Origin: Eubacteriales bacterium
Lineage (GTDB): Bacteria; Bacillota; Clostridia; Lachnospirales; Lachnospiraceae
Length of the DNA stretch: 64,000 bases
Direction: 5' to 3'
Assembly: GCA_030524545.1 (NCBI GenBank)
Contig: JAUNGM010000014.1
Location: 29,102-93,101, forward strand
The first letter of the stretch is position 1. Every line of letters begins with the position of its first letter. The position numbers and the translations under genes were made by a program. The notes below the pieces were generated by a model. That model worked only from the letters and a program-made list of their open reading frames with translations. It searched no databases and was not told the DNA's origin. Below, one piece after another: positions 2,222-61,573 of this stretch.

Positions 2222-2235
2222 AAAAGGGGGAAGCT

Positions 2236-4320: not shown

Positions 4321-4329
4321 GAGGGGCTT

Positions 4330-4752: not shown

Positions 4753-4756
4753 GCTG

Positions 4757-5989: not shown

Positions 5990-6055
5990 CTGTCCGGCCG
6001 GCTGTGAGAATACCGGACAGATCAGAAGAAACATAGAAACATAAGGAGAGAGCAT

Positions 6056-6988: not shown

Positions 6989-6993
6989 GGCCC

Positions 6994-7033
6994 AAAGCAG
7001 CAGGAGGATTTTGTGTCCTTCTGCTGCTTTTTA
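6994..7033 (+). terminator. Terminator-like hairpin between the TDT gene and mobA
   Basis: The arms AAAGCAGCAGGAGGA and TCCTTCTGCTGCTTTTT pair around a short loop and end in a run of T. The stem is long and nearly perfect. It probably ends part of the transcription of the reductase genes and lowers the expression of mobA-moeA-mobB, unless read-through is regulated. Confidence 0.75.
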
Positions 7034-7068
7034 ACACCGGTAAAAACGGAGGACAGAAGGAGAAACAG

Positions 7069-8897: not shown

Positions 8898-9436
8898 ACA
8901 GGATGTCGAAGGTGGTCGCCGTATGCGGCGTAAAAAATTCCGGAAAGACTACGCTCCTTGAAAAGCTGGTGAGGGAGCTGTCAGGTATGGGAATCAGGGC
9001 TGCGGTCATCAAGCATGACGGACATGATTTTTCCTGCGATATTCCCGGAACGGACAGCCACAGGCTATGGAGCGCCGGGGCTTATGGAACGGCAGTGTTT
9101 TCCGAGAATAGAATCTTTGTGCACAAAGAGGAAAGAACGGAACCGGGGAAGAAGGAACCGAAGAAGCAAAAAACAGAAGAAAAGATCCGGGAGCTTCTGG
9201 GTCTTTTTCCGGAGGCGGACATCATTTTTCTGGAAGGAATGAAAGAGAGCAGTTTTCCAAAGATTGAAGTCGTTCGGAAAGCAGTTTCCAGAGAGCCGGT
9301 GTCAAACCCGGAAGGAAGATTCCTGATCGTGACTGATCTGGAACCGGGAGAGTTTCCGGAGGAAATGTTTGCAGGGGAAGAGACGGCAGGTATGGAAGAG
9401 ACAGACCTGATCATTGAGAAAATCCTGCGCATTTGA
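8879..9436 (+). CDS. mobB: Molybdopterin-guanine dinucleotide biosynthesis adaptor
   Basis: A 185-residue GTP-binding protein that assists MobA in making or delivering the MGD cofactor. The P-loop GVKNSGKTTLLEKL and the downstream KHDGHDFSCDIPGTDSHR segment, followed by IIFLEGMKES, are typical of MobB. The ATG at 8879 has AAGGAAGGGG seven bases upstream and lies inside the end of moeA; an ATG at 8903 is the alternative. The middle has a lysine- and glutamate-rich stretch (about residues 80-100) not normally conserved. Confidence 0.9.
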   Translation: MGGNAVDRMSKVVAVCGVKNSGKTTLLEKLVRELSGMGIRAAVIKHDGHDFSCDIPGTDSHRLWSAGAYGTAVFSENRIFVHKEERTEPGKKEPKKQKTEEKIRELLGLFPEADIIFLEGMKESSFPKIEVVRKAVSREPVSNPEGRFLIVTDLEPGEFPEEMFAGEETAGMEETDLIIEKILRI

Positions 9437-46202: not shown

Positions 46203-46454
46203 ATGGAAACCAGAATCGCAATTATCGGAATCATTGTGGAGGATATCGATTCTACAGGCGCAGTGAATGAAGTGCTGCATGACTATAGTATGTATATTAT
46301 CGGGCGTATGGGACTGCCTTACAGGGAGCGGGATATTAACATCATTACCATTGCCCTGGATGCGCCCGGAGATGTGATCAATACGATGGCAGGAAGAATC
46401 GGGAAAATACAGGGAGTCAGTGTGAAGGCCATGTATTCGAAACTACCGGAGTGA
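46203..46454 (+). CDS. TM1266-family iron-hydrogenase-system type regulator
   Basis: An 83-residue ACT/NikR-C-like small protein (TRIAIIGIIVEDIDS, VNEVLHDYSMYIIGRMGLPY, ITIALDAPGDVINTMAGRIG, VKAMYSKL). The family is known as a putative regulator found beside [FeFe]-hydrogenase maturation genes; no such genes are in this window. The ATG at 46203 follows GGGGAGG. It is the first gene of the nitrogenase-like operon, only 39 bases from the first nifH-like gene, which suggests it senses or regulates the metal-cluster system encoded after it. Confidence 0.82.
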   Translation: METRIAIIGIIVEDIDSTGAVNEVLHDYSMYIIGRMGLPYRERDINIITIALDAPGDVINTMAGRIGKIQGVSVKAMYSKLPE

Positions 46455-46493
46455 GACAGAAACATATTTCAGTAATCATATTGGGGGATTTTT

Positions 46494-47258
46494 ATGAAGA
46501 AAATAGCGGTTTACGGAAAAGGCGGTATCGGAAAGTCCACGATCGTTTCCAACCTGGCGGCTGCGATGGCAAAGAAGGGCCTTCGGGTCATGCAGATCGG
46601 CTGTGATCCCAAGGCGGATTCTACGATTGGCCTTCGCCATGGGGAAAAGCTTCCGACCATTCTGGAAACGGTGCGAAAAAAGAAAGATCAGTTTACGTTA
46701 GAGGAAATTACAAAGACCGGCTATGCCGGGGTAGTCTGTGTGGAAGCGGGAGGCCCGATTCCCGGGCTTGGATGTGCCGGACGGGGGATCATCACCGCAC
46801 TGGAAAAGCTGGAGGCCAAAGGGGCATATGACAGGTTTGAGCCGGATGTGGTGTTTTATGACGTACTGGGCGATGTGGTCTGCGGCGGTTTTTCCATGCC
46901 GATGAGGGACGGATATGCAGACCAGGTATTTATCGTGACTTCGGGAGAGAATATGTCCATTTACGCGGCTGCCAATATTGCAACGGCCATTGAGAATTTT
47001 CAGGGGCGCGGATATGCCGGGCTTGGAGGCATGATCCTGAACTGCCGCAATGTGAAAAATGAGATGGAGAAAGTGGAAGAACTTTGCGGAGATTTTCATA
47101 CGGAGATTGTGGGAAAGATAGCGTTCAGCGAGACGGTACAGGATGCGGAAGCGCTGCATAAAACAGTAATAGAAGCCTTCCCGGAAAGCGAGATCGCAGA
47201 AGCGTACCGGAATCTGGCAGATGTGATGATAGAGCGGCTGCAGATCAGGGTCCCCTAA
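46494..47258 (+). CDS. Nitrogenase iron protein-like ATPase (NifH-like 1)
   Basis: A 254-residue NifH/BchL/CfbC-type reductase component. The P-loop is [10 protein letters not shown] at residues 5-14, and the two [4Fe-4S] ligands that bridge the dimer are kept: Cys94 in GLGCAGRG and Cys130 in [19 protein letters not shown] and [10 protein letters not shown] are further family marks. It is expected to bind ATP and pass single electrons to the component-1-like pair encoded downstream. It is not a true NifH: no nifDK catalytic set or nifB/E/N is around. The target reaction is unknown. Confidence 0.92.
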
Positions 47259-47331
47259 CGGGATACCAGAATGGCATCCGCCAGGAAAGAGGAAATCCCT
47301 AAAGGGATACCAGGGTGGCATCCGCCATCAA
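47249..47331 (+). repeat. Two copies of a double-hairpin repeat between nifH-like 1 and nifD-like 1
   Basis: Copy A (about 47249-47285) and copy B (47286-47331) are 44 bases apart. Each has a first hairpin (TCCC...GGGA; ATCCC-TAAA-GGGAT in copy B, 47295-47308), the spacer ACCANNN, and a second hairpin TGGC-ATCC-GCCA (47272-47283 and 47316-47327). Each copy also carries an SD-like GGGA(T) followed by ATG or GTG. The same design recurs at the window end. Confidence 0.75.
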
Positions 47332-47345
47332 AGGAGGAAGAACGA

Positions 47346-48680
47346 ATGTTAAGAAAAGTAGGAGGAGGGATGGACTCTTCCGGGGCGAAGGTAAGCATAC
47401 GGGAAGCAAATTTCCCCGCGCCCTTTCAGGAAGGACTGGAATACAGCTCTCCGGCAAGAGGGACCTGGAATATTGTACATACCGGTATGCTGATACCGGA
47501 ATCCCATCAGATTTTTGTCTGCGCCCAGGGATGCCTGCGGGGAGTGGTGCTTACCGCAGCGGAGATGAATGCGATGGGGCGTTACTCCGCAGTAGCCATC
47601 CGGGAAGAAAATGTGCTGGACGGAACCATGGAGGAATTGATGATCGAAGGAGTATCGGATGTGCTGAAAAAGCTTTCCTACAGGCCAAAAGCCGTGCTGC
47701 TTTTTATCAGCTGCCAGCATTTCTTTCTGGCATATGACCAGAAAGGGGTATTCCGGACTTTGCGAAAGCGCTTTCCGGATATCCGGTTCCTGGACTGCTA
47801 TATGATACCGACCCTGCGCAAAAGCGGCCTGACGCCGGATCAGAAGATGCGTATCCAGCTCTACAGTGCACTGGAACCGATGCCTCAGAAACTGAAAAAA
47901 ATAAGTCTGATCGGAAGCAATCTGCCTGTAAGTGCAGACAGTGAGCTGGTAAAGCTGCTGCAGGAAAACGGTTTTGAACTGGTTCAGCTTCAGGATTGCC
48001 AAAGCTTTGATGATTATCTTCACATGGCGGAAAGCTCCCTGAACCTCTTTTATGAGCCGCTGGCCCTGATGGCAGCAAAGGATCTGGAAAAACGGCTGGG
48101 GCAGAAGTATCTGTACCTGACCTTCAGCTTCTGCTATGAGGAACTGGAAGAAAATTACCGGAACCTGTGCGAAGCACTTCAGATATCCATACCGGATGAC
48201 TGGAGTGTCGGCCTCAGGGAAAAAGCGGAGCTTTCCTTAAAAAGGGCGAGAGACATTATCGGGGACACGCCCATAGCAGTGGACTATTCTTTTACATTCC
48301 GTATTTTGAGCTTTACACGGATGCTGCTGGAGCATGGATTTCATGTGACGGAGATTTACGGTGATGTGTTTCTGCCGGAAGAGAAGGAAGATTTTCTGTG
48401 GATTCAGAAGCATTTTCCGGAGATTGCCGTCTCATCCTGCATCCGTCCGAAGATGCGTTATCTGAACCGGAAGCGGGACGGAAAAATGCTGGCAGTCGGA
48501 CAAAAAGCCGCCTATTTCACGGGAACAGATCATTTTGTTAATGTGGTGGAGAGCGGAGGGCTGTATGGCTATGAAGGAATCGTTCAGATTGCCGGGCTGA
48601 TGGAGGATGCATTTTTACATACAAAGGATCGAAAATCAATCATTCAAAGAAAAGGATACGGGTGTGAGAGCTGTATATGA
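47346..48680 (+). CDS. Nitrogenase component 1-like protein (NifD/E-like 1)
   Basis: A 444-residue protein with the three-domain alpha/beta fold character of nitrogenase component 1 subunits. Candidate cluster cysteines are Cys59 and Cys63 in FVCAQGCLRG and Cys123 in LFISCQHF, equivalent in order to the second and third P-cluster ligands of NifD; the first ligand is missing. There are no clear FeMo-cofactor ligands. The late VTEIYGDVF segment is shared with the second D-like protein (VSEIYGTVS). The ATG at 47346 follows AAAGGAGGAA. It is probably the partner of the K-like protein encoded in the four-base overlap downstream. Confidence 0.8.
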   Translation: MLRKVGGGMDSSGAKVSIREANFPAPFQEGLEYSSPARGTWNIVHTGMLIPESHQIFVCAQGCLRGVVLTAAEMNAMGRYSAVAIREENVLDGTMEELMIEGVSDVLKKLSYRPKAVLLFISCQHFFLAYDQKGVFRTLRKRFPDIRFLDCYMIPTLRKSGLTPDQKMRIQLYSALEPMPQKLKKISLIGSNLPVSADSELVKLLQENGFELVQLQDCQSFDDYLHMAESSLNLFYEPLALMAAKDLEKRLGQKYLYLTFSFCYEELEENYRNLCEALQISIPDDWSVGLREKAELSLKRARDIIGDTPIAVDYSFTFRILSFTRMLLEHGFHVTEIYGDVFLPEEKEDFLWIQKHFPEIAVSSCIRPKMRYLNRKRDGKMLAVGQKAAYFTGTDHFVNVVESGGLYGYEGIVQIAGLMEDAFLHTKDRKSIIQRKGYGCESCI

Positions 48681-49852
48681 AACAGGTAGCAGGTTTGATT
48701 TCAACTTATTCGTCGGATGAATTTGGCATCTGTTCCGCCCTTTATGAGCTGGGGGGGATGGTGGTCATGCATGATGCATCCGGCTGCAATTCCACATACA
48801 CCACCCATGATGAGCCGCGTTGGTATGAGGTGGACAGTATGATCTATATCTCGGCCATTTCCGAAATGGAAGCGATCATGGGGGATGATGACAAACTGAT
48901 CGGGGACCTGGTAGAGACGGCCGGGGAACTCCATCCCGGATTTATCGCCGTTGTGGGAGCGCCTATTCCGTATATGATCGGAACGGACCTGGGAGCGATC
49001 GCGGCAATTACAGAGAAAAGGACAGGCATTCCCTGCTTTGGCTTTTCGGCCAACGGAATGCAGAATTATACAAAGGGAATTTCCATGGCTTTGGAGAAAA
49101 TCGTGGAGAGGTTCTGCATTCGCGAGATTGCCGGGACAAAGAACCTGTCGGTAAATATCATCGGTGCAACTCCGCTGGATTTTTCCGTAAACGGCAGCGT
49201 GGACTCCATAAAAGAATGGATTCAGGAGCAGGGCATGGAAGTGGGAGCCTGTTTTGCCATGGGGAGTACCATGGAAGAAATTGAGAAAGCCGGGCAGGCC
49301 CGTGTGAACCTGGTGGTTTCCTACGGCGGGCTTGCAGCGGCAAAAAAACTGAAAGAAATCTTCGGAACACCCTATGTAGTGGGGGTTCCTTTAGGAAAGG
49401 CATTTGCGGAGTATCTGGGGAACGCTGTAAAAAAGGCGGCGGAAACAGGGGAATGTGTGATTGGCTATCGGGATGCGGATATATGCGGAGAGGAGACAGT
49501 TACCGGATCTTTAAAATCCCTTGCAGTCATTGGGGAAAGCGTATATTCAGCGTCCCTGGCGGCAGCGATACGGATGGAATGCGGAATCGATGCGCGGGTA
49601 TTCTGCCCCCTTGATACGGAGCCGGAGCTGCTCCGGGAAGGCGATCTGCTGACACCGGAGGAGGATGATCTGATGGAACACCTGCCTGAGGCGGAGGGAG
49701 TGATCGCAGATCCTCTGTACCGGCCTTTATGCAGCGAAAATATAAAATTTTATCCGCTTCCTCATGAGGCCTTTTCCGGAAGAATTTATGATGCAGTGAA
49801 TCCGGATCTGGTGAATCGGGAATTACGGAAAGTGGAGGTTAGGGAATGTTAA
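48677..49852 (+). CDS. Nitrogenase component 1-like protein (NifK/N-like 1)
   Basis: A 391-residue component-1-type protein. It opens with [21 protein letters not shown] and keeps a single cysteine at the expected cluster position, Cys37 in [18 protein letters not shown]. The usual second and third positions are empty ([13 protein letters not shown] lacks Cys). [11 protein letters not shown] and [14 protein letters not shown] are shared with K-like 2. It should form a heterodimer or heterotetramer with D-like 1. A reduced, bridging [4Fe-4S] cluster as in BchNB or CfbD is the most plausible cluster type. Overlaps both neighbours by a few bases. Confidence 0.8.
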
Positions 49853-50595
49853 AACTTGCAATATACGGAAAAGGCGGGATTGGAAAATCCACCACAACCA
49901 GCAACCTGGCAGCGGCCTTTGCGGTGCTGGGGAAAAAGGTGATCCAGATCGGATGTGACCCAAAAGCGGATTCTACCATTAATCTGCTGGGAGGGAATCC
50001 GGTGAAGCCTGTGATGAATTATCTTCGGGAGTACGATGAAGAGCCGGAGCGGATTGACCAGATTGCGAAGGAGGGATTCGGCGGCGTGCTCTGTATCGAG
50101 ACCGGGGGCCCGACGCCGGGACTGGGCTGCGCAGGAAGAGGAATCATCACGACCTTCAGCCTGCTGGAAGATCTGGAGCTTTTTGAAACGTATCAGCCGG
50201 ATGTGGTGCTTTATGATGTGCTGGGAGACGTGGTGTGCGGAGGGTTTGCAGCTCCTATCCGGGAAGGCTATGCAAGCGGTATCCTGATCGTCACTTCCGG
50301 GGAAAAGATGGCGTTGTATGCAGCCAATAATATCAATACTGCGGTGAACAATTTTGAAGACCGGGGATATGCATCCGTGAAGGGAATTATCCTGAACCGC
50401 AGGGATGTGGAGAATGAGGAAGAAAAGGTGCGGGAATTTGCCGAAAAGAACGGGCTGGAAATTGTGGCGGACATCCCCAGGAGCCAGGACATTATCCGGT
50501 TTGAAGACCGGGGAATGACGGTGATCGAGGGAGATGTAAATCTGCCTGTCAGCCGGAAGTATCTGGAGCTGGCAAAACGTCTGCTGGAAGAGTAA
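49846..50595 (+). CDS. Nitrogenase iron protein-like ATPase (NifH-like 2)
   Basis: A 249-residue second NifH-type protein. P-loop [15 protein letters not shown] at residues 6-20, cluster ligands Cys95 (GLGCAGRG) and Cys131 ([10 protein letters not shown]). It is clearly related to NifH-like 1 but differs through its whole length, so the duplication is old. Its start overlaps the end of K-like 1 by seven bases, and the second triad follows directly. Having a reductase for each pair suggests that the pairs do different reactions or different steps. Confidence 0.92.
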
Positions 50596-50622
50596 AGATT
50601 CCTTAATGCGATAGGAGGTTTT

Positions 50623-51933
50623 ATGGAGAAGGAAGTTTATTATATCACTGCTGCCGAACTGGCAGAACGGGGAAGGGATGGGATTCCGGACGAGCTGCAG
50701 TCTTCGAAGCATCTGATCTACAGCTCTCCGGCAACCCTTTCCTTTAATTCCCCCGGAGCGCAGGGCTTTGGGGTAAAGAGGGCGGGCCTTGCTGTTCCGG
50801 GATCCGTGGAGCTTTTGGTGGCTCCGGGATGCTGCGGAAGGAATACGACCATGCTCAGTGAACTGGGCGGATACAGTGAGCGATTTTTTTATCTGCTGAT
50901 GGACGACACGGATATTGTGACGGGACGCCACCTGAATAAGATCTCAAAGGCTGTAAAAGAGGTGGTGGATTCTCTGGAAGAAAGGCCCTCTGCGGTCATG
51001 ATCTGTATTACCTGTGTGGATGCCCTTCTGGGAACCGATATGGACAGGGTCTGTCGGAAAGCTTCCGATTACGCAGGGGTTCCGGTACTTCCCTGCTATA
51101 TGTATGCCCTGACAAGAGAGGGACGTGTACCGCCTATGACTGCGGTACGGAAATCCGTTTACTCCCTCCTGGAAAAAAGAGAGAAGAAGTCCACGACAGT
51201 GAATCTTCTGGGAGAGTTTGCCCCGTTTCTGGATGATACGGAGTTGTATGAGATTCTCCGGGGGCTTGGGGTGAAGAAGATCAATGAGATTTCCAGATGT
51301 AAGGATTTTGAGGAATATCTTTCTATGGCGGAGGCGAATTTTAATCTTGTTTTGAACCCGGAGTGCCGTCTGGCTGCGGAGGATATCCGGAAACGTCTGG
51401 ATATTCCGGGAATCGAGCTTACCAGACTTTACCAGATCGACAAGATTCACCGCCAGTATGAACTGCTGGGAGGTGCTCTCGGCGTGAAGATCGATGACGG
51501 GAAATACTATGAGGCTGCCATGGAAGCGGTAGAACGCTTTTCCCAAAAGTATCCCGAAACGGTATTTGCCATTGGGGAATGCCTGAATGGCGGATCCTTC
51601 GAGCTGGCGCTGGCACTGCTTCGTTATGGACATCACGTATCGGAAATATACGGAACGGTTTCTTCAGAAAACTTTATCTATATTAAGAAGATTGCGGCAA
51701 TAAGCCCTGATACACGGATTTATACAAATCTGTCCCCGACAATGCTCTACTATGACTGCGGGGAAGGGAAGGCGGACATTACCATCGGAAAGGATGCGGA
51801 ATATTATCATCCGAATTGTGTAAATGTGCCATGGAACCAGGAGCGCCAGCCTTTTGGGTATTCCGGGCTTCGTCATCTGTTTGAGGAATTGGAGGAAGCA
51901 ATGGACAAGACTGCAGAAGGGAGAACAAGATGA
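50623..51933 (+). CDS. Nitrogenase component 1-like protein (NifD/E-like 2)
   Basis: A 436-residue component-1-like protein. Its N-terminal part YSSPATLSFNSPGAQGFG lacks the first P-cluster cysteine. Cys70 and Cys71 in VAPGCCGRN and Cys128/Cys131 in ICITCVDAL match the second and third ligand positions. VSEIYGTVSSENF near the C-terminus aligns with D-like 1. It is more like the first D-like protein in layout than any NifD known to me. Start follows AGGAGG. The downstream K-like 2 overlaps its stop by four bases. Confidence 0.8.
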   Translation: MEKEVYYITAAELAERGRDGIPDELQSSKHLIYSSPATLSFNSPGAQGFGVKRAGLAVPGSVELLVAPGCCGRNTTMLSELGGYSERFFYLLMDDTDIVTGRHLNKISKAVKEVVDSLEERPSAVMICITCVDALLGTDMDRVCRKASDYAGVPVLPCYMYALTREGRVPPMTAVRKSVYSLLEKREKKSTTVNLLGEFAPFLDDTELYEILRGLGVKKINEISRCKDFEEYLSMAEANFNLVLNPECRLAAEDIRKRLDIPGIELTRLYQIDKIHRQYELLGGALGVKIDDGKYYEAAMEAVERFSQKYPETVFAIGECLNGGSFELALALLRYGHHVSEIYGTVSSENFIYIKKIAAISPDTRIYTNLSPTMLYYDCGEGKADITIGKDAEYYHPNCVNVPWNQERQPFGYSGLRHLFEELEEAMDKTAEGRTR

Positions 51934-52973
51934 AGGGATTATTAAAATATCTGTCACCCTTTGCGCCGGATCAGTCCGGTGCGGCATCGGTGCTGTATGA
52001 GCTGGGCGGGATCACGGTCATCTGTGATGCGGGCGGCTGTACGGGAAACATCTGCGGGTTTGATGAGCCGAGATGGTTTGTACGGAAAAGTGCCATCTTC
52101 AGCGCAGGCCTTCGGGATATGGATGCGATTCTCGGAAGAGATGACAGGCTGGTGGAGAAGCTGAAGGATACGGCCAAAAAAGTGGATGCGGAATTTGCCG
52201 CTGTCATCGGAACCCCTGTCCCTGCGGTGATTGCAACGGATTTTCAGGCGCTGAAGCGAATGGCAGAGAAGCGCTGCGGGATTCCGGTGATCACCGTGGA
52301 GTGTACGGGAACCCGTATATATGATGAAGGGGAAGAGGAAACTTACCTGGAATTGTTCCGCAAATTTGCGGAGGATCAAAAAGAAGTGAATGCGAAAACC
52401 ATAGGGGTGCTCGGCGCTACCCCGCTGGATCTGGGCAGCATTCATGCAGACCGGGAAATCCATGAGGTGCTGTCGAAGCAGGGATATGAGAATGTTTTCT
52501 GTTATGGCATGGGAAGCGGCCTGGAAGCGGTAAAAAATGCAGGGACTGCAGCAAAGAATCTGGTTGTAGCCCCCGCAGGCCTGAAGGCAGCGCAGTATTT
52601 GCAAAAACGGTTCGGCACGCCGTATGAGGTGTCTTACCCGCTCCTTGGAGAAGAGATCAAAGAGCAGCTTCATAAGCTGGCAGGAAAAAAAGTCCTGGTT
52701 GTTCATCAGCAGACAGCAGCCAACGAAATCCGTAAGGAGATCCGCCGGGCCGGGGAAGCGGATGTAACGGCGGCAACCTGGTTTATGCTGACAGAGGAAG
52801 GAAAAGAACCGCAGGATGTGCAGCTTACCACAGAAAAGCAATTTGCAGAGTATGTGGAACAGGGAGGCTTTGATGTGATCATCGGAGACCGGCTTTTGAA
52901 ACGGGCGCTTAGAACTTATCAGGGAGAATATATCGCAGTCAGCCACTTTGCGGTATCAGGGGAATTGGGATGA
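51930..52973 (+). CDS. Nitrogenase component 1-like protein (NifK/N-like 2)
   Basis: A 347-residue protein. Like K-like 1 it opens with LSPFAPDQSGAASVLYELGG, has Cys37 in CDAGGCTG and the shared DEPRW, and keeps GATPLDLG and LVVAPAGLKAAQYL. VIGTPVPAVIATD replaces the third ligand segment and has no Cys. The C-terminal part is shorter than that of K-like 1. It closes the second triad, and the next gene, hypF, overlaps its stop by four bases, tying the nitrogenase-like genes to the hyp genes in one transcript. Confidence 0.8.
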   Translation: MKGLLKYLSPFAPDQSGAASVLYELGGITVICDAGGCTGNICGFDEPRWFVRKSAIFSAGLRDMDAILGRDDRLVEKLKDTAKKVDAEFAAVIGTPVPAVIATDFQALKRMAEKRCGIPVITVECTGTRIYDEGEEETYLELFRKFAEDQKEVNAKTIGVLGATPLDLGSIHADREIHEVLSKQGYENVFCYGMGSGLEAVKNAGTAAKNLVVAPAGLKAAQYLQKRFGTPYEVSYPLLGEEIKEQLHKLAGKKVLVVHQQTAANEIRKEIRRAGEADVTAATWFMLTEEGKEPQDVQLTTEKQFAEYVEQGGFDVIIGDRLLKRALRTYQGEYIAVSHFAVSGELG

Positions 52974-55378
52974 GCAGATCAAATGAAAAAAGTACACAGG
53001 TCATCCGTGTGTATGGAATTGTCCAGGGAGTTGGCTTCCGGCCCTTTGTGAGCCGAATTGCAGACCGTGCGGGGGTCACGGGAAACGTGGCAAATAAGGG
53101 TTCCTATGTGGAAATCTATGCAAGAGGAACCGAAGAGGAACGGGCGGAATTTCTGCAATATCTGCGGGAAGAGCCTCCGGAGCGGTCTGCTGTATTAAAG
53201 ACCGATATTTCGGACTGTGAGGATATTCCTTTTGAACAGTTTGACATTATTGAAAGTGAAAAAGAAGAGGGGGATATCTTCGTTTCTCCGGATATTGCCA
53301 CCTGCCCCAAGTGCAGGCAGGAATTGTATGATCCCGGAAACCGCAGATATATGCATCCTTTTATCAACTGTACGGCATGCGGCCCGAGGCTTACGATCCT
53401 GGATTCCATGCCCTATGACCGGGAACGGACCAGTATGGGGGAGTTTCCCATGTGCCCGGAATGTGCGTATGAATATACCCATGCGGAAACAAGAAGATAC
53501 GATGCACAGCCTGTCTGCTGCAATGACTGCGGCCCGGAGGTTTATCTGATCGGAAGAGAGGAACGCGGCCGGGAGGCGATCACTTATGTGCGGAAGGCAA
53601 TTCTGGAAGGCAAGATCATTGCAGTAAAGGGAATCGGAGGATTTCACCTCTGCTGTGACGCCGCTAATGAGGAGGCTGTAGCAAGGCTTCGGAAGCTGAA
53701 AACACGCCCGGCAAAGCCCTTTGCAGTGATGATGAAAAATCTTGAGACTGTGGAGCGGGAATGCATCATCAGCCCGGAGAGTGAGGAAGTGCTGGACGGC
53801 CACCAGAAGCCGATCATTCTGCTGAAAAAAAAGCCGGGCGGGATCCTGGCTCCTTCCGTGGCTCCCGATAACCCTAAAGTAGGGGTGATGCTTCCGTATG
53901 CTCCTGTGCAGATGCTGCTGTTTGAGTATAATGACGGAATCACCATGACCACGGACTGCTTTGTGATGACAAGCGGAAATGTATCCGGGGCGCCTATCTG
54001 CCGGACGGATGAAGATGCGGTGAAGGAGCTTTCGTCTTTTTGTGACATTATCCTGTCCCATGACCGCAAAATCCGGCTGCGGGCAGATGATTCGGTGATG
54101 GACTATTACAGGGGGGAACCCTATATGATCCGCCGCTCCCGGGGCTATGCGCCGCTGCCCTTTATGTTATCAGAGGCGTTTCACGGGCAGGTGCTTGCTG
54201 TGGGCGGAGAATTAAAAAATACATTTTGCATCGGGAAAAACCAGCTGTTTTATCCGTCGCCCTATGTGGGGGATATGGCGGATATCCGGACAGTGCAGGC
54301 ATTGGAAGAATCCATCATCAGGATGGAGGAGCTTCTGGAAGCGAAGCCGTCCATTGTGGCCTGTGACATGCACCCGAAATACAATACCACGCTTGTGGCG
54401 GAAGAGCAGGGGATCCCTGTTTTCCGTGTGCAGCATCATTATGCGCATATTGTATCCTGCATGGCAGAGAATGACTGCGCAGAACCGGTGATCGGAGTTT
54501 CCTTTGACGGGACGGGATACGGAACGGACGGGACAATCTGGGGCGGTGAGATTCTGGAGGCTTCCTATCAGTCCTTTACACGGCTTGGAAGCATCCGGCC
54601 GTTTATCCAGATCGGCGGTGATGCTTCGGCAAAAGAAGGCTGGAGGATTGCCGTATCCATGATCAACTGCCTGTATCCGGACAGGGCGGCAGAGATTGTG
54701 GAAACGCTCGGGCTGTGTGAGGAGTCTGTGAGGAAGCTGTATGAACAGATGGCAGTGCGGAAGATCAACAGTGTGGTATCCACAAGCGCAGGAAGATTAT
54801 TCGATGCAGTCAGTGCGATTCTGGGAATCCGGCTTTGTTCTACCTTTGAGGGAGAGGCATCAACGACTCTGGAGTTTGCTGCCGAAGCGTATGAGGAGAC
54901 AAGGGCCGAAGAAGCGATTCGGGAAGAGCTTCGGGCAGTTTTGAAATCATTTTCCGCTGCTGCGGAGTGTGTGGAGAAGGAATCCCCGGTGGAACTGCCG
55001 GAGAAGGAGAATGCACAGAAATTTATTCTCCCGACGGAACGGCTGGTTCGTCTGATCATAGAAAAAAGGCTTCAGGGAACAGAGGCAGGGAATTTAGCTT
55101 ATCTTTTCCATGCCTTGCTGGCAGAGCAGATCGTGGAAGGCTGTAAGAAAGCGGCAGAAATGACAGGGCTTGAGGTCTGTGCCCTGAGCGGCGGAGTCTT
55201 CCAGAATCAGCTTCTTCTGCGGCTGTGCGAGGAGCGGCTGACGGAAGAGGGCTTCCGGGTACTGCGGCACAGCCTGCTTCCGCCGAACGACGGGGGAATT
55301 GCATTGGGCCAGGCCGTGGCGGCGATGGTTTATATACAGAAACAGAATGATCTGGAAGATACAAAACAGGTGGAATAA
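52970..55378 (+). CDS. hypF: Carbamoyltransferase HypF
   Basis: An 802-residue HypF. It transfers carbamoyl groups, from carbamoyl phosphate, to the C-terminal Cys of HypE as the source of cyanide ligands. Domains in order are: acylphosphatase (VQGVGFRPFVSRIA, residues ~18-31), two zinc fingers (CPKC...CTAC and CPEC...CNDC, ~105-190), a YrdC-like domain (~205-390) and a Kae1-like C-terminal domain (QHHYAHIVSCMAE, GVSFDGTGYGTDGTIWGGE, ALSGGVFQN). All expected domains are complete. Its four-base overlap with K-like 2 is unusual for hyp genes. Confidence 0.96.
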   Translation: MSRSNEKSTQVIRVYGIVQGVGFRPFVSRIADRAGVTGNVANKGSYVEIYARGTEEERAEFLQYLREEPPERSAVLKTDISDCEDIPFEQFDIIESEKEEGDIFVSPDIATCPKCRQELYDPGNRRYMHPFINCTACGPRLTILDSMPYDRERTSMGEFPMCPECAYEYTHAETRRYDAQPVCCNDCGPEVYLIGREERGREAITYVRKAILEGKIIAVKGIGGFHLCCDAANEEAVARLRKLKTRPAKPFAVMMKNLETVERECIISPESEEVLDGHQKPIILLKKKPGGILAPSVAPDNPKVGVMLPYAPVQMLLFEYNDGITMTTDCFVMTSGNVSGAPICRTDEDAVKELSSFCDIILSHDRKIRLRADDSVMDYYRGEPYMIRRSRGYAPLPFMLSEAFHGQVLAVGGELKNTFCIGKNQLFYPSPYVGDMADIRTVQALEESIIRMEELLEAKPSIVACDMHPKYNTTLVAEEQGIPVFRVQHHYAHIVSCMAENDCAEPVIGVSFDGTGYGTDGTIWGGEILEASYQSFTRLGSIRPFIQIGGDASAKEGWRIAVSMINCLYPDRAAEIVETLGLCEESVRKLYEQMAVRKINSVVSTSAGRLFDAVSAILGIRLCSTFEGEASTTLEFAAEAYEETRAEEAIREELRAVLKSFSAAAECVEKESPVELPEKENAQKFILPTERLVRLIIEKRLQGTEAGNLAYLFHALLAEQIVEGCKKAAEMTGLEVCALSGGVFQNQLLLRLCEERLTEEGFRVLRHSLLPPNDGGIALGQAVAAMVYIQKQNDLEDTKQVE

Positions 55379-55394
55379 AAGGAGGAACAAGGGC

Positions 55395-55601
55395 ATGTGT
55401 GTAGGTTTAGCGGCAAAAGTAGTAGGAATTAAAAACGGAATGGCAGTTGTGGATGCATCCGGTGCAAAGCGTGAGGTTTCCGCGGAGCTTCTGGAAGATC
55501 TGGAACCGGGAGATTATGTGATGGTTCATGCCGGAATTGCCATTGCAAAGATCACGGAAGACGATACAGAAGAAACCGACGATCTCATGGGATTGTTATA
55601 A
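55395..55601 (+). CDS. hypC: Hydrogenase maturation chaperone HypC
   Basis: A 68-residue protein beginning MCVG, with the essential Cys2 that binds the Fe(CN)2CO unit with HypD. LEPGDYVMVHAGIAIAKI is the family hallmark. The ATG at 55395 follows AGGAGGAAC and gives exact N-terminal Met-Cys. HypC normally hands the iron unit to the large subunit of a [NiFe] hydrogenase; none is encoded here. Confidence 0.96.
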   Translation: MCVGLAAKVVGIKNGMAVVDASGAKREVSAELLEDLEPGDYVMVHAGIAIAKITEDDTEETDDLMGLL

Positions 55602-55611
55602 CGGAGAAAAG

Positions 55612-56667
55612 ATGATGGAAAAAATACAGAAAACAGCAAAAGAGATAATCGAAACTTATGATGGATCTCCCATCCGTATTATGGAAGTGTGCGGCACCCA
55701 TACCCATGAAATTTTCCGGCTGGGAATCCGAAAGATCCTTCCGGAAAATGTGGAACTGATCTCAGGCCCCGGATGCCCGGTCTGCGTTACACCTGTGGGA
55801 TTTATTGATGAGGCAGTGATGCTGGCTCTGGAACATGGCGCAGTCATCTGTACCTTCGGAGACTTGATCCGGGTTCCGGGAACAAAGAAAAGCCTTGCGG
55901 ATGCACGGGCAGAGGGAGCGAAGATCCAGGTTGTGTACACCCCTCTGGATGCGGTGGATTATGCGGCGGAAAATCCGGATAAGCAGGTGGTATTTCTGGC
56001 AGTGGGATTTGAGACAACCACACCGTCCGTCTGTCTTGCGGCAAAGAAGGCACAGGAAGCAGGGCTTGAGAACTTCTCCCTTCTTACCGCAAATAAGACC
56101 ATGCCAAATGCATATCAGGCATTAAAAGGCAGCGCAGACGCATTTCTCTATCCCGGACATGTCAATGCCATCACAGGTGAAGAAGAATGCAGAAAACTGG
56201 CGGAAAGAGACGGAGTCTCCGGCGTGATCGCAGGATTTACGGCAAAAGAACTGCTGACAGCCCTGGCTGTAACTATAGAAAAATCAAAGACAGGAATACC
56301 GTTTTTTGTGAACTGTTATCCCCGTGTCGTTCGGCCGGAGGGAAATACCGCAGCACAAAAAATCATAGAAGAAGTGATGGAACCCTGCGATTCCGAATGG
56401 AGAGGACTTGGTGTGATACCGGGCTCCGGCCTGCAGCTTCGTGAGGGATACGGTGCGTATGATGCCCGGAAGAAATTCCGCCTTCCAAAAGTGGAAGGGC
56501 GAAGCAATCCGGCCTGCCGCTGCGGAGAAGTGCTTCAGGGAAAATGCAGGCCGTCGGACTGCAAAGTATTCGGAAAAGGATGTACGCCGCAGCATCCCAT
56601 CGGTGCCTGCATGGTATCCAATGAAGGTGCATGTTCTGCCTATTATCAGTACAGCAGTGAGGTATAA
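55612..56667 (+). CDS. hypD: Fe(CN)2CO assembly protein HypD
   Basis: A 351-residue HypD, the scaffold that builds the Fe(CN)2CO unit with HypC and HypE. The catalytic/iron-binding motifs are MEVCGTHTHEIFR near residue 24, GPGCPVCVTP near 55 and the C-terminal [4Fe-4S] region (CRCGEVLQGKC, CKVFGKGC, GACMVSNEGACSAYY). The ATG at 55612 is used (55615 is an alternative), ten bases after the hypC stop, with a GGAG site. All conserved cysteines are present, so it looks functional. Confidence 0.96.
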   Translation: MMEKIQKTAKEIIETYDGSPIRIMEVCGTHTHEIFRLGIRKILPENVELISGPGCPVCVTPVGFIDEAVMLALEHGAVICTFGDLIRVPGTKKSLADARAEGAKIQVVYTPLDAVDYAAENPDKQVVFLAVGFETTTPSVCLAAKKAQEAGLENFSLLTANKTMPNAYQALKGSADAFLYPGHVNAITGEEECRKLAERDGVSGVIAGFTAKELLTALAVTIEKSKTGIPFFVNCYPRVVRPEGNTAAQKIIEEVMEPCDSEWRGLGVIPGSGLQLREGYGAYDARKKFRLPKVEGRSNPACRCGEVLQGKCRPSDCKVFGKGCTPQHPIGACMVSNEGACSAYYQYSSEV

Positions 56668-56681
56668 AGGAGGAAACAGAT

Positions 56682-57689
56682 ATGATGGAAAATAAAGTAA
56701 CCCTTGCCCACGGAGCAGGGGGAAGACAGACAGCCGAGCTGATCGAAAAAGTATTTAAGGCACATTTTGCCAATCCGGAATTTACGGCAGATGATGCGGC
56801 AATCCTGAACGTGGGCGACGGCAGAATCGCCATGACTACCGACGGATTTATCGTTTCCCCTTTTGAATTTCCGGGAGGAAATATCGGAAAACTCAGTATC
56901 TGCGGTACGGTCAACGATCTGGCGTGTATGGGAGCAAAACCGCTTTATTTAACCTGTTCTTTTATTATAGAAGAAGGATTTCCTCTGGATAAGCTGGAAG
57001 AGATTGCTTCCTATATGGAAAAAACGGCTGCGGAGGCCGGGGTAAAGATTGTGGCAGGAGATACTAAGGTTGCCGGAAAAGGCCAGGTGGACAATGTATT
57101 TATCACCACCACCGGCATCGGAAAGCTGCAGGAGGGTGTCCATACTTCCGGCGCATTCGCAAAACCAGGAGATGCGGTGATCGTCACAGGGGATATCGGA
57201 CGGCACGGCTGCACCATCCTTCTGGCACGGGAAAATCTGGGAATTGAAGCGGATGTAAAGAGCGACTGTGCACCTTTGTGGGGAACCGTGGAATCGATGC
57301 TTGAAACAACGAAAGACATCCATGTGATCCGGGATGCCACCCGCGGCGGGGTAGGCACGGTTCTTTATGAAATTGCCGCAGAGAGTAAGGTGGGAATCCG
57401 TCTGGATGCCTCTTCCATTCCGGTAGACGGAGCCGTCCGCGGCGTTTGCGGAATGCTTGGCCTGGATCCGCTGTATCTGGCAAATGAAGGAACCTTAGTG
57501 GTAGTTGCCCCTAAGGAAAAAGCGCAGGCGCTGGTCGAAACACTTCATAAAGGGAAATATTCCGGAAATGCTGCGATTATCGGTGAGGTTACAGATACTA
57601 TGCCCGGAAAGGTCGTGATGACTACGGAAATCGGTGCCGAAACACTGCTCCCACAGCCGGGCGGAGAATTACTGCCGCGGATTTGCTAG
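56682..57689 (+). CDS. hypE: Hydrogenase maturation protein HypE
   Basis: A 335-residue PurM-like ATPase, which dehydrates the thiocarbamate at its C-terminal Cys to thiocyanate. The protein begins with VTLAHGAGGRQT and ends exactly in LLPRIC, the carbamoylated tail. TTDGFIVSPFEFPGGNIG and VAGDTKVAGKG are other family marks. It ends the operon. The adjacent LysR gene is convergent and there is no clear terminator in the 19-base gap. Confidence 0.96.
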   Translation: MMENKVTLAHGAGGRQTAELIEKVFKAHFANPEFTADDAAILNVGDGRIAMTTDGFIVSPFEFPGGNIGKLSICGTVNDLACMGAKPLYLTCSFIIEEGFPLDKLEEIASYMEKTAAEAGVKIVAGDTKVAGKGQVDNVFITTTGIGKLQEGVHTSGAFAKPGDAVIVTGDIGRHGCTILLARENLGIEADVKSDCAPLWGTVESMLETTKDIHVIRDATRGGVGTVLYEIAAESKVGIRLDASSIPVDGAVRGVCGMLGLDPLYLANEGTLVVVAPKEKAQALVETLHKGKYSGNAAIIGEVTDTMPGKVVMTTEIGAETLLPQPGGELLPRIC

Positions 57690-57708: not shown

Positions 57709-58605
57709 TCAGGAATCCTTATAATAGTCCCGCACAAAGTGAATGAACTGTTTCACATGGGGTTTTAAGATTCTGTTTTTGCTGTAAACAATATAAAAGG
57801 TACGCGTATGGGCGGATTCTTCTAAAGGGAATAGGAGAATCTGCCTTGTTTTTTCCAGATCAAGAGCAGAACGGGCTGACAAAATGGAAATACCAAGTCC
57901 GTTGACAATGGATTTCTTGATGGATTCCAGATCATTCATGCGGACAACTACATTTAAGTCGGAGCTGGAGATTCCGTGGCGTTCCAGGAAACGGTCCATT
58001 TCTTTGCGCGTGCCGGAGCCTGTTTCCCGGAGAATGAAAGATTCATCCAGAAAGTCCCGGAAAGCAGCACCGCGGCTTTTGAGCTTCAGAAAATGGTCGT
58101 TGACCGGAGTTGCGATGACGAGAGAGTCGTGGCAGAAGGGAAGGAAGCAGCAGGTTTCTTCTTCTGCTTTCTGGCCCGTAAGGCTTAAGTCCACGCTGCC
58201 ATCCAGAACCCTTTGGATCGCACCGGCACTGTCGGACTGCCAGGAATGAAAATAGATATTTTCCACCTGCCGTCCGAAAGCACTCAGAAGCTCCGGGAGA
58301 AGATAGGAGGAAGGAATGGTGGACACGCCGATATCAATGATCTTTTTCTTGGTTCCGGCAAATTCATCCACCAGATTGTTGCGCATGTTCAGCATCTGCA
58401 CAGCACAGTCATAGAGCTGGTAGCCTCTGGCAGTGACGGTAAGCTTTTTGGTAGTGCGGATGATGAGGCGGGAATTCAGTTCGGTTTCCAGTGAGCGGAT
58501 ATGCGCACTGATGGTGGGCTGCGTCAGATAAAGGCGCCGTGCTGCCTCAGAAAAACTGTTATATTCTACGACGGCCACAAAGGCTTCCAATTGTTTAAAT
58601 TCCAT
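57709..58605 (-). CDS. LysR-family regulator, selenium-metabolism type
   Basis: A 298-residue LysR-type regulator. The N-terminal helix-turn-helix (MEFKQLEAFVAVVEYNSF, AARRLYLTQPTISAHIRSLE) is followed by the effector-binding domain (residues ~90-295). It sits after a cysteine-desulfurase-like gene on the minus strand and near yedE, a TusA-like gene and a DUF3343 gene on the plus strand. LysR proteins in such sets are annotated as selenium-metabolism associated. Its likely target is the inverted repeat at 59898-59959. The effector is unknown. Confidence 0.85.
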   Translation of the reverse strand: MEFKQLEAFVAVVEYNSFSEAARRLYLTQPTISAHIRSLETELNSRLIIRTTKKLTVTARGYQLYDCAVQMLNMRNNLVDEFAGTKKKIIDIGVSTIPSSYLLPELLSAFGRQVENIYFHSWQSDSAGAIQRVLDGSVDLSLTGQKAEEETCCFLPFCHDSLVIATPVNDHFLKLKSRGAAFRDFLDESFILRETGSGTRKEMDRFLERHGISSSDLNVVVRMNDLESIKKSIVNGLGISILSARSALDLEKTRQILLFPLEESAHTRTFYIVYSKNRILKPHVKQFIHFVRDYYKDS

Positions 58606-58650
58606 AGCGGTTATCCTCGAATCGATTTTATTCTGCCGGGGGCGGCGGGG

Positions 58651-59823
58651 TTATCCGTTAAGGCCGGTGATCTCGGCCAGAGCATGCAGGGCGGCATCCA
58701 GTTCCTCTTGCGTATTCCCGGGGCCGAAGGAGAATCGGATAGTTCCCGCCGGATATGTACCCAGTGTTTTGTGGGCATTTGGAGCGCAGTGAAGTCCCAC
58801 CCGTGTCATGATTCCATACCGGTCATCCAGTTCATAGGCCGCCTGTGCCATATCCATCTGAAGAGTCTGAATGGAGACAACTGCACAGCGGTCAATGCAG
58901 TCCTGTTTTCCCACGATACGGATGTACTCGCTTTCCGGATCCAGATTCCTAAGCCCTTTCAGAAAATAGTCCGTCAAAGCCATTTCATGGCGGAACATTT
59001 CTTCCATGGAACTGTTCTCCAGATCGGTCAGTGCTGCATGAAGTCCAAGAATTCCGGGAAGGTTGGGAGTCCCCGGTTCAAAACGGTCAGGCAGAAAATC
59101 CGGGATTTCTTCCGTATGGGAAATGCTTCCGGTACCGCCGGAGAGGAGCGGTTCAATCTGTCGGGCAAGGGTATCCCGCACCAGAAATCCGCCGATTCCC
59201 TGTGGGCCGCGAAGCCCTTTATGCCCGGTAAAAGCCAGGGCATCAATATGCATTTCTTCCATATCGATCGGAAGGATTCCGGCAGTCTGGGCGGTATCCA
59301 GGATAAATGCAATCTTGTGCTTCTGACAGAGCAGTCCAAGCTCCCGGGCAGGCATGACCGTACCGCAGACATTGGAAGCGTGGAGACAGACAAGAGCCCT
59401 GGTATTTGGCCGGATAAGCGATTCCGCTTCTTCCAGGCACAGGCTTCCGTCCTGTCTGCAGGGAATCCGGTCAAACAAAACACCGGTTTTTTGAAGCTGT
59501 GTTAAAGGCCGCATGACAGCATTATGTTCCATGGCAGAGACAAGTACGTGGTCGCCTGGTTTAAGCAGGCCCTTCAAAAGGATGTTTAAACTGGACGTGA
59601 CATTGCCCGTAAAGATCACATTCCTGCAGTTGGGAAAATGGAACAGGCGGCAGAGCTGTTCCCTTGTTTCATAGACCTGTTCCTCCACGGAGTAGGCTTC
59701 TGTGTAGCAGCCTCGGTTCACATTCACGGAAAAGCCGGAAAGATACCGGTAAACAGCGTCTGCCACGGAGGAAGCCTTGGGAAAGGAAGTACTGGCCTGG
59801 TCAAGATATATTTTTTTCCTCAT
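58651..59823 (-). CDS. Cysteine desulfurase-family aminotransferase class V
   Basis: A 390-residue PLP enzyme. The PLP lysine is Lys202 in [17 protein letters not shown], and a conserved cysteine lies in [15 protein letters not shown] near residue 350, which suits release of sulfur or selenium from cysteine or selenocysteine. The start [11 protein letters not shown] is typical of the EF2568-like group that travels with yedE and TusA/YedF genes in selenium loci. GAGG lies about 10 bases before the ATG. It is the first gene of the minus-strand pair with the LysR regulator. Confidence 0.88.
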
Positions 59824-59854
59824 AAAAGTACCTCGCGATCATTCTGATAGATGC

Positions 59855-59860
59855 AGTATA
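59855..59860 (-). promoter_or_regulatory. Candidate -10 box for the minus-strand pair
   Basis: On the minus strand this reads TATACT, about 32 bases before the start codon at 59823. The -35 region (TAGATA at 59878-59883) is weak. Confidence 0.4.
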
Positions 59861-59897
59861 TCATAATTTATTAATTCTATCTATAAATATCCTAAAA

Positions 59898-59959
59898 AAT
59901 CATTTATAAATTATTGGAAGGATTTTGAAAGAAATGGTATCATTTTTTTATAAATGATT
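59898..59959 (+). promoter_or_regulatory. 13-bp inverted repeat operator between divergent genes
   Basis: AATCATTTATAAA (59898-59910) and TTTATAAATGATT (59947-59959) are perfect inverted copies 36 bases apart, centred on the yedE promoter region. A TTGGAA (59914-59919) and TATCAT (59938-59943), 18 bases apart with TGG before the -10 box, is the candidate yedE promoter. The repeat spans both divergent promoters, as LysR operators usually do. Confidence 0.7.
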
Positions 59960-59985
59960 TATGAACAAGAAAGGAAGGGTTACAA

Positions 59986-61065
59986 ATGAAAAACGAAAAA
60001 ACAGTGATTACGGGAGCCGGCATTATGATCGGTCTGATAGCTGCTGCGCTTGTATTTTTCGGCAATCCGGTAAATATGGGATTCTGTATCGCATGTTTTC
60101 TGCGGGATACATCCGGTGCGCTGGGCCTGCACTCTGCAGCAGCCGTTCAGTACATACGTCCGGAGATCATCGGACTTGTCCTTGGCTCCTGTATCCTTGC
60201 ACTGGTAAACAAAGAATTTAAACCGCGCGGAGGAAGCGCCCCTGTAACACGTTTTATTTTAGGCGTTTTTGTAATGATCGGATGCCTGATGTTCCTGGGA
60301 TGTCCGTTCCGCATGATCTTACGAATTGCAGGCGGTGACCTGAATGCCATTTTCGGGCTGGTGGGATTTGTTCTTGGAATCCTGGCAGGCGTCTTTTTCC
60401 TGAAGAGAGGCTACACGCTGAAACGCTCCTACAAAATGCCGAAAGCAGAAGGCGGCCTTTTCCCTGCATTGGAAATCGTCTTTCTGGTTCTGCTTGTGGC
60501 AGCTCCGGCATTTATTCACTTTACGGAACCGGAAGGAGGCCCCGGCGCTAAACATGCGGCAATCCTCATTTCTCTTGCAGCAGGCCTGATCGTAGGAGCA
60601 CTTGCACAGAAGACGCGTCTTTGTATGGTAGGCGGTATCCGTGATGCAGTTCTTTTTGGGGAATACAAGCTGCTGATCGGCTTTGCAGCCATTCTGGTCA
60701 GTGCACTTGTGGGAAATCTGATCCTTACGGCAGCAACAGGAACTCCTTATTTTACCCTTGGCATGGCAGGCCAGCCGGTTGCACATACGGACGGTCTCTG
60801 GAATGCCCTTGGAATGCTTCTTGCAGGCTTCGGCTGCGTGCTCCTGGGCGGATGTCCTCTGCGCCAGCTTGTACTTGCAGGCGAAGGAAATACGGACTCT
60901 GCCATCGCGATTTTCGGTCTGATGGTTGGTGCTGCATTTGCACATAACTTTGGTCTGGCTTCTTCCGGAGAGGGCCCGACTGCGAACGGAAAGATCGCTG
61001 TGATCATCGGTATCGTTGTAGTTGCCGTGATCGCAGTCCTGAATTCCAGAAAAAGTGAAGCCTGA
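59986..61065 (+). CDS. yedE: YedE-family selenium/sulfur transporter
   Basis: A 359-residue protein with about ten membrane helices in two repeated halves. Conserved cysteines include GFCIACFLRD and FLGCPFRM in the first half, and KTRLCMVGGIRD and LLGGCPLRQL in the second. This is the pattern of the YeeE/YedE sulfur-trafficking transporters. The partner proteins encoded immediately downstream (TusA-like and DUF3343) match selenium-associated YedE loci. AAGGAAGGG lies before the ATG. Sulfur rather than selenium transport is possible. Confidence 0.9.
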   Translation: MKNEKTVITGAGIMIGLIAAALVFFGNPVNMGFCIACFLRDTSGALGLHSAAAVQYIRPEIIGLVLGSCILALVNKEFKPRGGSAPVTRFILGVFVMIGCLMFLGCPFRMILRIAGGDLNAIFGLVGFVLGILAGVFFLKRGYTLKRSYKMPKAEGGLFPALEIVFLVLLVAAPAFIHFTEPEGGPGAKHAAILISLAAGLIVGALAQKTRLCMVGGIRDAVLFGEYKLLIGFAAILVSALVGNLILTAATGTPYFTLGMAGQPVAHTDGLWNALGMLLAGFGCVLLGGCPLRQLVLAGEGNTDSAIAIFGLMVGAAFAHNFGLASSGEGPTANGKIAVIIGIVVVAVIAVLNSRKSEA

Positions 61066-61107
61066 AAACAGTCAGATACAGATAGGATATGAGAGGAGAA
61101 GCAAGAG

Positions 61108-61314
61108 ATGAAAACAATTGATGCAAGAGGCCTGTCCTGCCCGGAGCCGGTTATTATGACAAAGAATGCTCTGGCATCTAAGGAAGCTGCTTATGAAGTG
61201 CTTGTAGATAATGTTACTGCCAAAGAAAATGTTACCCGCTTTGCCACACATCAGGGATACCAGGTTAAGGCGGAGGAGAAGGGAGATGAGTATCTCCTTC
61301 ATCTGAAAAAATAA
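61108..61314 (+). CDS. TusA/SirA-like sulfur or selenium carrier
   Basis: A 68-residue TusA-fold protein with the catalytic Cys in DARGLSCPEPVIMTKNAL (residues ~4-21). The classical YedF protein has an extra DsrE-like domain; here only the TusA domain is present, so it is a stand-alone carrier. It lies between yedE and the DUF3343 gene, and probably accepts persulfide or perselenide from YedE or the cysteine desulfurase-like enzyme. Confidence 0.9.
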   Translation: MKTIDARGLSCPEPVIMTKNALASKEAAYEVLVDNVTAKENVTRFATHQGYQVKAEEKGDEYLLHLKK

Positions 61315-61324
61315 CAGAGGAAGC

Positions 61325-61573
61325 ATGGAAGAGTATATTGCTACGTTTTATTCCCATTTCGGGGCAATCCGGTTCAAAAGATCCTGTGAAGCTGCGGGAC
61401 TTACCGCCGCAGTGATGCCGGTACCCAGAAATTTAAGCTCCTCCTGCGGGACCTGTGTGAAATTCCAGGCGCGGGGGGAATCATCCATTCCGGAAAAAAA
61501 CGAGGAGATGGAACAGATTGTCCTTGTCACGGACAGGGGATTTCAGCAGATCTATCAGGCGGAGGATGCCTGA
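61325..61573 (+). CDS. DUF3343 protein, putative Se/S carrier
   Basis: An 82-residue protein of the DUF3343 family (MEEYIATFYSHFGAIRFKR, AAGLTAAVMPVPRNLSSSCG, CVKFQARGES). The SSCGTCVKF segment offers two cysteines. DUF3343 genes regularly occur beside yedE, TusA-like and aminotransferase class V genes, and are annotated as putative Se/S carrier-like. GAGGAAGC precedes the ATG. The function is inferred from neighbours. Confidence 0.85.
   Translation: MEEYIATFYSHFGAIRFKRSCEAAGLTAAVMPVPRNLSSSCGTCVKFQARGESSIPEKNEEMEQIVLVTDRGFQQIYQAEDA

Follow-up and report, generated by a model that had tools for sequence, protein, structure and literature searches.

An operon of two nitrogenase-like triads and HypFCDE that most likely replaces HydG in [FeFe]-hydrogenase maturation

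Here, we analysed a stretch of 64,000 nucleotides (the window) from a genome of the family Lachnospiraceae (Eubacteriales bacterium, assembly GCA_030524545.1, contig JAUNGM010000014.1, positions 29,102 to 93,101), which harbours an eleven-gene operon of the order TM1266-H1-D1-K1-H2-D2-K2-hypF-hypC-hypD-hypE at 46203-57689, with all genes on the + strand. Two triads, each composed of a NifH-like Fe protein (H) and two component-1-like subunits (D and K), are joined in this operon to the maturation genes hypFCDE, and we suggest that the operon most likely replaces the maturase HydG. The following features were assigned:

46203..46454, + strand: TM1266-type 'iron-only hydrogenase system' putative regulator, 83 amino acids (aa); Pfam PF21699 5.9e-30, NCBIfam TIGR03959 over cut-off
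46494..47258, + strand: H1, NifH-like Fe protein of triad 1; PF00142 2.4e-89
47346..48680, + strand: D1, component-1-like subunit of triad 1; supported by residue conservation and fold
48677..49852, + strand: K1, component-1-like subunit of triad 1; PF00148 1.3e-31
49846..50595, + strand: H2, NifH-like Fe protein of triad 2; PF00142 2.7e-87
50623..51933, + strand: D2, component-1-like subunit of triad 2; PF00148 6e-29
51930..52973, + strand: K2, component-1-like subunit of triad 2; PF00148 3.2e-24
52970..55378, + strand: hypF, carbamoyltransferase; TIGR00143 760 bits, over cut-off
55395..55601, + strand: hypC, chaperone; TIGR00074 over cut-off
55606..56667, + strand: hypD; TIGR00075 410 bits, over cut-off
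56682..57689, + strand: hypE; TIGR02124 427 bits, over cut-off
57810..57846, + strand: terminator-like stem-loop 3' of the operon; 15 pairs and a T-run, consensus match only

Overlaps of 4-7 bases occur at the D1/K1, K1/H2, D2/K2 and K2/hypF junctions. The open reading frame (ORF) of D1 extends from 47271, and a clear Shine-Dalgarno sequence precedes 47346, which is probably its start; the gap between H1 and D1 (47258-47346) holds a short direct repeat in two copies (GGGATACCAG..GGCATCCGCCA). TM1266 is a putative [FeFe]-hydrogenase regulator, while HydE and HydF are [FeFe]-hydrogenase maturases. HypF performs the first step toward cyanide in the maturation of [NiFe] hydrogenases, in which HypD is the scaffold of the Fe(CN)2CO unit. 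The HypD encoded at 55606..56667 is the only HypD match of the genome (E <= 1e-40); HypA and HypB were not found within the operon, the wider genome not having been searched for them.

Conservation of individual residues was counted among named relatives. Both Fe proteins carry a P-loop, read in the sequence, and invariant cluster cysteines (C94 and C130 of H1 in 56/56 relatives, C95 and C131 of H2 in 77/77). In triad 1, C84, C88, C148 and H150 of D1 are invariant in 62 relatives (residue numbers counted from 47271), C37, H32 and H44 of K1 in 55 relatives and also in alignment A4, and K1 C19 in the 55 relatives and not in alignment A4. In triad 2, the invariant residues are C70, C71, C128 and C131 of D2 (80/80 relatives), of which C128 is not present in a D2-K2 fusion of genome G238, as well as C37 and C42 of K2 (67/67). 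Structure prediction yielded component-1 folds for both D1 and D2 (mean predicted local distance difference test score 78.8 and 82.7, respectively), which are similar to DPOR, NifEN and nitrogenase alike, and the closest sequences with solved structures for the nitrogenase-like subunits were mostly NifE and NifD. In alignments, K1 C37 corresponds to a cluster Cys of NifN and D2 C131 to one of NifE; the conserved D/K cysteines would thus fit an interface [4Fe-4S] cluster. In the alignment, D2 carries Asn at the position of the NifE cofactor Cys, the counterpart of Cys275 among the FeMo-co ligands Cys275 and His442; D1 and the His442 positions were judged by eye.

Curated family scores speak against NifHDK, NifEN, CfbCD and DPOR as identities of the subunits. 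H1 and H2 reached 332 and 304 bits against the NifH cut-off of 394, the D and K subunits at most 70.5 bits against cut-offs of at least 268, and the top NifE score was 70.5 bits (cut-off 505), which speaks against a NifEN scaffold. The same holds for CfbCD (CfbC scores of 328 and 294 bits, cut-off 402) and for DPOR (BchL 194/208 bits against 345, BchB at most 60 against 490, BchN 19 against 420). The triads thus resemble NifHDK and NifEN in combining an Fe protein with the D/K fold, but all subunits stay below the curated cut-offs, and the NifE cofactor Cys is aligned with Asn in D2. Unlike DPOR (BchLNB), CfbCD and methylthio-alkane reductase, the operon comprises two triads with Hyp/Hyd partners. 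On the side of the Hyp proteins, HypD and HypF were judged by family score and the key cysteines were looked at in HypC and HypE: the N-terminal Cys of HypC (C4, numbering from two codons upstream) and one His are invariant in 49/49 relatives, and the C-terminal PRIC Cys of HypE (C335) in 56/56. The likeness to the HypABCDEF system of [NiFe] maturation therefore extends to all four family cut-offs and to these cysteines, but the operon lacks HypA/B, its hyp genes are joined to nitrogenase-like genes, and an [NiFe] client is unmatched in the own genome and in 49 of 68 carrier genomes (see below).

Members of the D2 clade (at least 45% identity) occur in 18 of 392 genomes sampled from the order of the window. 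Longer neighbourhoods were read for 14 of the 17 such genomes other than the window's, and K2 was followed by hypF in 13 of them; in the exception, G238, hypF-hypC-hypD and a D1-like gene lie at another place on the same contig. The D2-K2 fusion of this genome is natural, 592 aa long with a short K2 part, and is encoded at L047:9625-11403. A scan of named genomes yielded 526 stretches encoding a D2 relative, and all named-locus counts refer to the best 80 of these 526; counts of partner genes are lower bounds because many contigs stop within the cluster. The next recognised gene after K2 was hypF in 72/72 loci showing one, and the complete set D1 K1 H2 D2 K2 hypF C D E was visible in 53 of the 80 loci. 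The eleven-gene order given in the original prediction is confirmed, and its view of one unit in which hyp genes are tied to nitrogenase-like genes is supported. Two gene orders prevail, namely triad 1-triad 2-hyp (41 loci) and triad 2-hyp-(TM1266)-triad 1 (24 loci), the remaining 15 being cut or otherwise arranged. Among the hosts are Clostridium ljungdahlii, C. ragsdalei, C. carboxidivorans and C. drakei, furthermore Anaerobutyricum hallii, Eubacterium ramulus, Faecalicatena contorta and an Anaerostipes; D2 was also found in metagenome-assembled genomes labelled Lentisphaeria, Coriobacteriaceae and Synergistaceae (the last on one 3-kb contig). As triad 1 lacks an adjoining H of its own in L151, L157, G380 and G135, H2 probably serves both triads.

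The search for co-occurring genes, suggested by the original prediction, led to the [FeFe]-hydrogenase maturation system. TM1266 was encoded in 34, HydF in 17 and HydE in 13 of the 80 loci; HydE and/or HydF were present in 26 and at least one of HydE, HydF and TM1266 in 49, while HydG was not among the genes of these loci. In genomes of family f11, among them G075, G120 and G287, the cluster reads TM1266-HydF-HydE-H1-D1-K1-H2-D2-K2-hypFCDE, and the linkage with HydE, HydF or TM1266 is also seen in G380 and G390. Beyond these, an ABC-ATPase family recurred in 11 loci and apparent antisense ORFs in 7-10, and none of the remaining unlabelled families was found in more than 4 of the 80 loci. Key cysteines of HydE and HydF are invariant among 12 and 17 sequences, respectively. 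The window's genome itself encodes HydE (580 bits, cut-off 255) and HydF (557 bits, cut-off 326) as single genes outside the operon, and a HydA within a HydABC-like trimer, which matches TIGR02512 ([FeFe] group A) with 457 bits against a cut-off of 406. This HydA holds all three H-cluster motifs (TSCCPAW, MPCTAKKYE and EVMACRRGCIMGGG), presumably those known as L1-L3. HydG was not found in this genome: the best match of 68.7 bits (cut-off 312) is located at the HydE gene.

In the textbook route, the radical S-adenosylmethionine (radical-SAM) enzyme HydG obtains CO and CN by cleaving tyrosine and assembles from them an Fe(CO)2CN synthon; HydE and HydF work on this synthon and hand it over to HydA. 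To our knowledge, HydG is generally regarded as required for [FeFe]-hydrogenases. The system described here resembles this route in that HydE, HydF and a group A HydA are present in the own genome and in that the clusters of relatives often include HydE, HydF and TM1266, but HydG is gone, and two nitrogenase-like triads together with HypFCDE stand in its place.

How consistent is the loss of HydG among carriers of the operon? HydG and HydF were called by TIGR03955 and TIGR03918 over cut-off and were present in 170 and 189 of the 392 genomes, respectively. HydF was found in 17 of the 18 genomes with D2, the exception being a 90%-complete assembly (G281), and HydG in 0/18, compared to 161/172 HydF-containing genomes without D2 (Fisher p 3e-17, relatedness uncorrected). 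Profile searches in 50 of the best 80 named D2 genomes, picked so as to favour named isolates, longer contigs and a wide spread, detected HydF in 47 and HydG in two (C. drakei and C. thailandense). In the pooled 68 D2 genomes (18 plus 50, with the same species possible in both sets), HydG was thus missing in 66 and HydF retained in 64. A swap at the level of the locus is visible within the window's genus. G372 has the order TM1266-hydE-hydG-lipoprotein-luxS, with HydE, HydG and LuxS over cut-off and no match to D2 or HypD. The cluster-bearing G329 has hydE-lipoprotein-luxS, with gaps of 87 bases from hydE to the lipoprotein ORF and 17 bases to the upstream gene; neither TM1266 nor hydG lies in its 20-kb hydE stretch, and TM1266 sits within the cluster instead. 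HydE of G372 shares 75% identity with its counterpart in the window's genome. In a HydE tree of 39 rows selected among the retrieved loci, of which 38 entered the test and none came from C. drakei or C. thailandense, cluster-type HydEs did not form one clade (approximately unbiased test, p 0.00025), and no fewer than three changes were forced; hence, HydE seems to have been kept through repeated exchanges of the synthon source.

A further argument comes from acetogens. In the parts of PMC9431212 (2022) considered here, HydE and HydF are reported for all of eight acetogens, while HydG was not found in C. ljungdahlii, C. carboxidivorans, C. coskatii, C. ragsdalei and C. sp. AWRP; its authors see no straightforward explanation and raise mechanisms yet to be identified. 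Three of these five species fall in our scan (L125, L132 and L127), and in all three the operon was present and HydG was not found. For five species, the same source lists HypCDEF but no HypAB, and its Table 4 shows two HypC/D/E sets in C. carboxidivorans, one numbered beside HypA/B; the other would be the set of the operon. It also contains motif-based HydG calls for C. drakei and C. scatologenes, and our profile search agrees on C. drakei, having covered neither C. scatologenes nor C. autoethanogenum. In C. autoethanogenum, HypEDCF is encoded by CAETHG_0368-0371 and the Hyt [FeFe] hydrogenase is already characterised, as stated in the considered part of PMC4022347. By title or abstract, we found no literature linking nitrogenase-like genes with HydE, HydF or HydG.

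Taken together, distribution and synteny point to a replacement of HydG, and we consider it quite probable that HypFCDE and two ATP-driven nitrogenase-like reductases make an Fe-CO/CN unit for HydE and HydF. HypF and HypE would convert carbamoyl phosphate to cyanide in the form of HypE thiocyanate, a reaction established for [NiFe] hydrogenases in the literature considered, and HypC-HypD would carry iron and assemble the Fe-CN/CO unit. The assemblies H2-D2K2 and H1-D1K1, fuelled by their NifH-like proteins and driven by ATP, would supply electrons or reducing steps, the likeliest chemistry being formation of CO from CO2 or formate; they may also tune the CN:CO ratio from the Fe(CN)2CO of Hyp to the unit that HydE accepts or the H-cluster needs. 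HydE, HydF and HydA would then act as usual. Supply of an Fe-CN/CO unit by HypFCDE, as originally predicted, is probably correct, whereas any assignment of roles between the triads is speculative. We lean, with less confidence, towards the more specific version in which one nitrogenase-like complex is a dedicated CO-forming enzyme and thus the CO source; we know of no such source for anaerobic Hyp systems.

Several observations weigh against this proposal. We know of no experiment that connects hydrogenase activity with any of the eleven genes. An independent-pairs test was not significant (three supported pairs, two or three in the opposite and none in the same direction). Eleven of the 28 HydF-positive, HydG-negative genomes of the order sample have neither D2 nor HypD, so HydG can be absent without the operon. 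C. drakei and C. thailandense carry both systems. G388 has HydG, HydE, HydF, TM1266 and triad 1 with no match to D2 or HypD, so that triad 1 cannot simply be one half of a replacement for HydG. In G331 and G369, HydA retains the three H-cluster motifs with neither HydF nor HydG over cut-off, which means that a HydA gene is no proof of an active hydrogenase. The known product of HypCDEF, according to the literature considered, is Fe(CN)2CO and not Fe(CO)2CN. PMC9431212, in the parts considered, offers an atypical HydG-like radical-SAM protein or the use of free CO/CN as alternatives for the missing HydG, calls a motif-based HydG in C. autoethanogenum, a genome outside our search, and assigns a single group 1a [NiFe] hydrogenase to every one of the eight acetogens, so that Hyp could also serve [NiFe] there. 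In view of the genomic counter-cases, we limit our claim to the statement that the operon most likely replaces HydG. The loci behind three of these cases may be described briefly. Three genomes of genus g83 (L070:8047-10544, L071 and L072) keep TM1266-hydE-hydF and have no match to HydG, D2 or HypD. The cluster of G388 (L056:9048-16148) consists of H1-D1-K1, TM1266, HydE and HydF, with HydG on L082. The motif-complete HydA genes of the two genomes of the window's genus lie at L085:2487-4175 and L087:1986-3677.

Could the operon instead make, and itself be, a new metalloenzyme, i.e. a nitrogenase-like reductase with Fe-CN/CO ligands acting on an unknown substrate, with HydE and HydF borrowed for its cofactor? 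Two triads look like more than a HydG substitute requires, triad 1 occurs together with HydG in G388, and the folds of D1 and D2 are similar to DPOR, NifEN and nitrogenase alike. Such an enzyme, however, does not predict that HydG is absent from 66/68 D2 genomes with HydF kept in 64; moreover, D2 C131 and K1 C37 align with NifE/NifN cluster cysteines, and D2 has Asn at the NifE cofactor Cys. We regard this possibility as unlikely, and the earlier idea of one triad as scaffold and the other as catalyst on an unknown substrate was not supported. Quite unlikely, in our view, is an auxiliary role in H-cluster assembly beside the HydG step, for instance in formation of the dithiomethylamine bridge or in reducing a HydE/HydF intermediate, with HydG being replaced by other means. 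Such a role would suit the co-occurrence of triad 1 with HydG in G388 and of the two systems in C. drakei and C. thailandense, as well as the existence of HydF-positive, HydG-negative genomes without D2, but HypFCDE is the known non-HydG route to Fe-bound CO/CN and stays with triad 2.

The hyp genes might also serve an [NiFe] or Ech-type hydrogenase encoded at another locus of the genome, their link with nitrogenase-like genes being an accident of operon structure, as the original prediction had allowed for in case hydrogenase large-subunit genes were always present and hyp neighbours varied freely. The [NiFe] large subunit (PF00374) was searched in 69 genomes (the 68 D2 genomes and G388) and matched in 19. 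Six of these are Clostridium with longer large-subunit matches, while the other 13 have only 361-382-aa proteins with about 70 positions matched, probably Ech/Nuo-like. Among these matched genomes are seven of family f11, six with a single HypD and G293 without a HypD match, so sharing is possible there; the group 1a enzymes of all eight acetogens also favour an [NiFe] client. In contrast, no PF00374 match was obtained in 50/69 genomes (49/68 without G388), including the window's own, and hyp neighbours did not vary freely, hypF following K2 wherever a next gene was visible in the named loci; the refuting condition named with the original prediction is thus decided in favour of that prediction. 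Moreover, a second HypC/D/E set exists in C. carboxidivorans (PMC9431212, in the part considered) and a second HypD in G238. As a general explanation, this account is largely refuted, and we consider it highly improbable.

If HydG is indeed replaced by the operon, this would explain how some H2-using acetogens and gut bacteria cope without HydG, and the operon is a concrete, deletable candidate for the missing HydG of industrial acetogens such as C. ljungdahlii. The metallocofactor worlds of nitrogenase, [NiFe] and [FeFe] would be joined, nitrogenase-like enzymes would gain a role in making the organometallic cofactor of another enzyme, and an anaerobic source of CO ligands may be revealed. 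Since D2 occurs in the gut genera Anaerobutyricum, Eubacterium (E. ramulus), Faecalicatena and Anaerostipes, the operon bears on gut hydrogen metabolism, and it also bears on heterologous hydrogenase production.

Downstream of the operon, 57709-61573 contains genes that we take to encode a LysR regulator and cysteine desulfurase-like, YedE-like transporter, TusA-like and DUF3343-like proteins, presumably resembling a selenium-metabolism set; these were not beside the operon in relatives. A third nitrogenase-like pair lies at a contig end elsewhere in the window's genome (L038:3-3646, C12), adjoining an SBP_bac_5 ABC transporter; its component-1 subunit matches PF00148 with 98.8 bits, and its H protein shares 48% identity with H1. 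At the other end of the window, 383-9436 holds genes that by eye were taken to be sulfite-reductase-like (AsrB/AsrC-type), molybdopterin oxidoreductase and MobA/MoeA/MobB-like.

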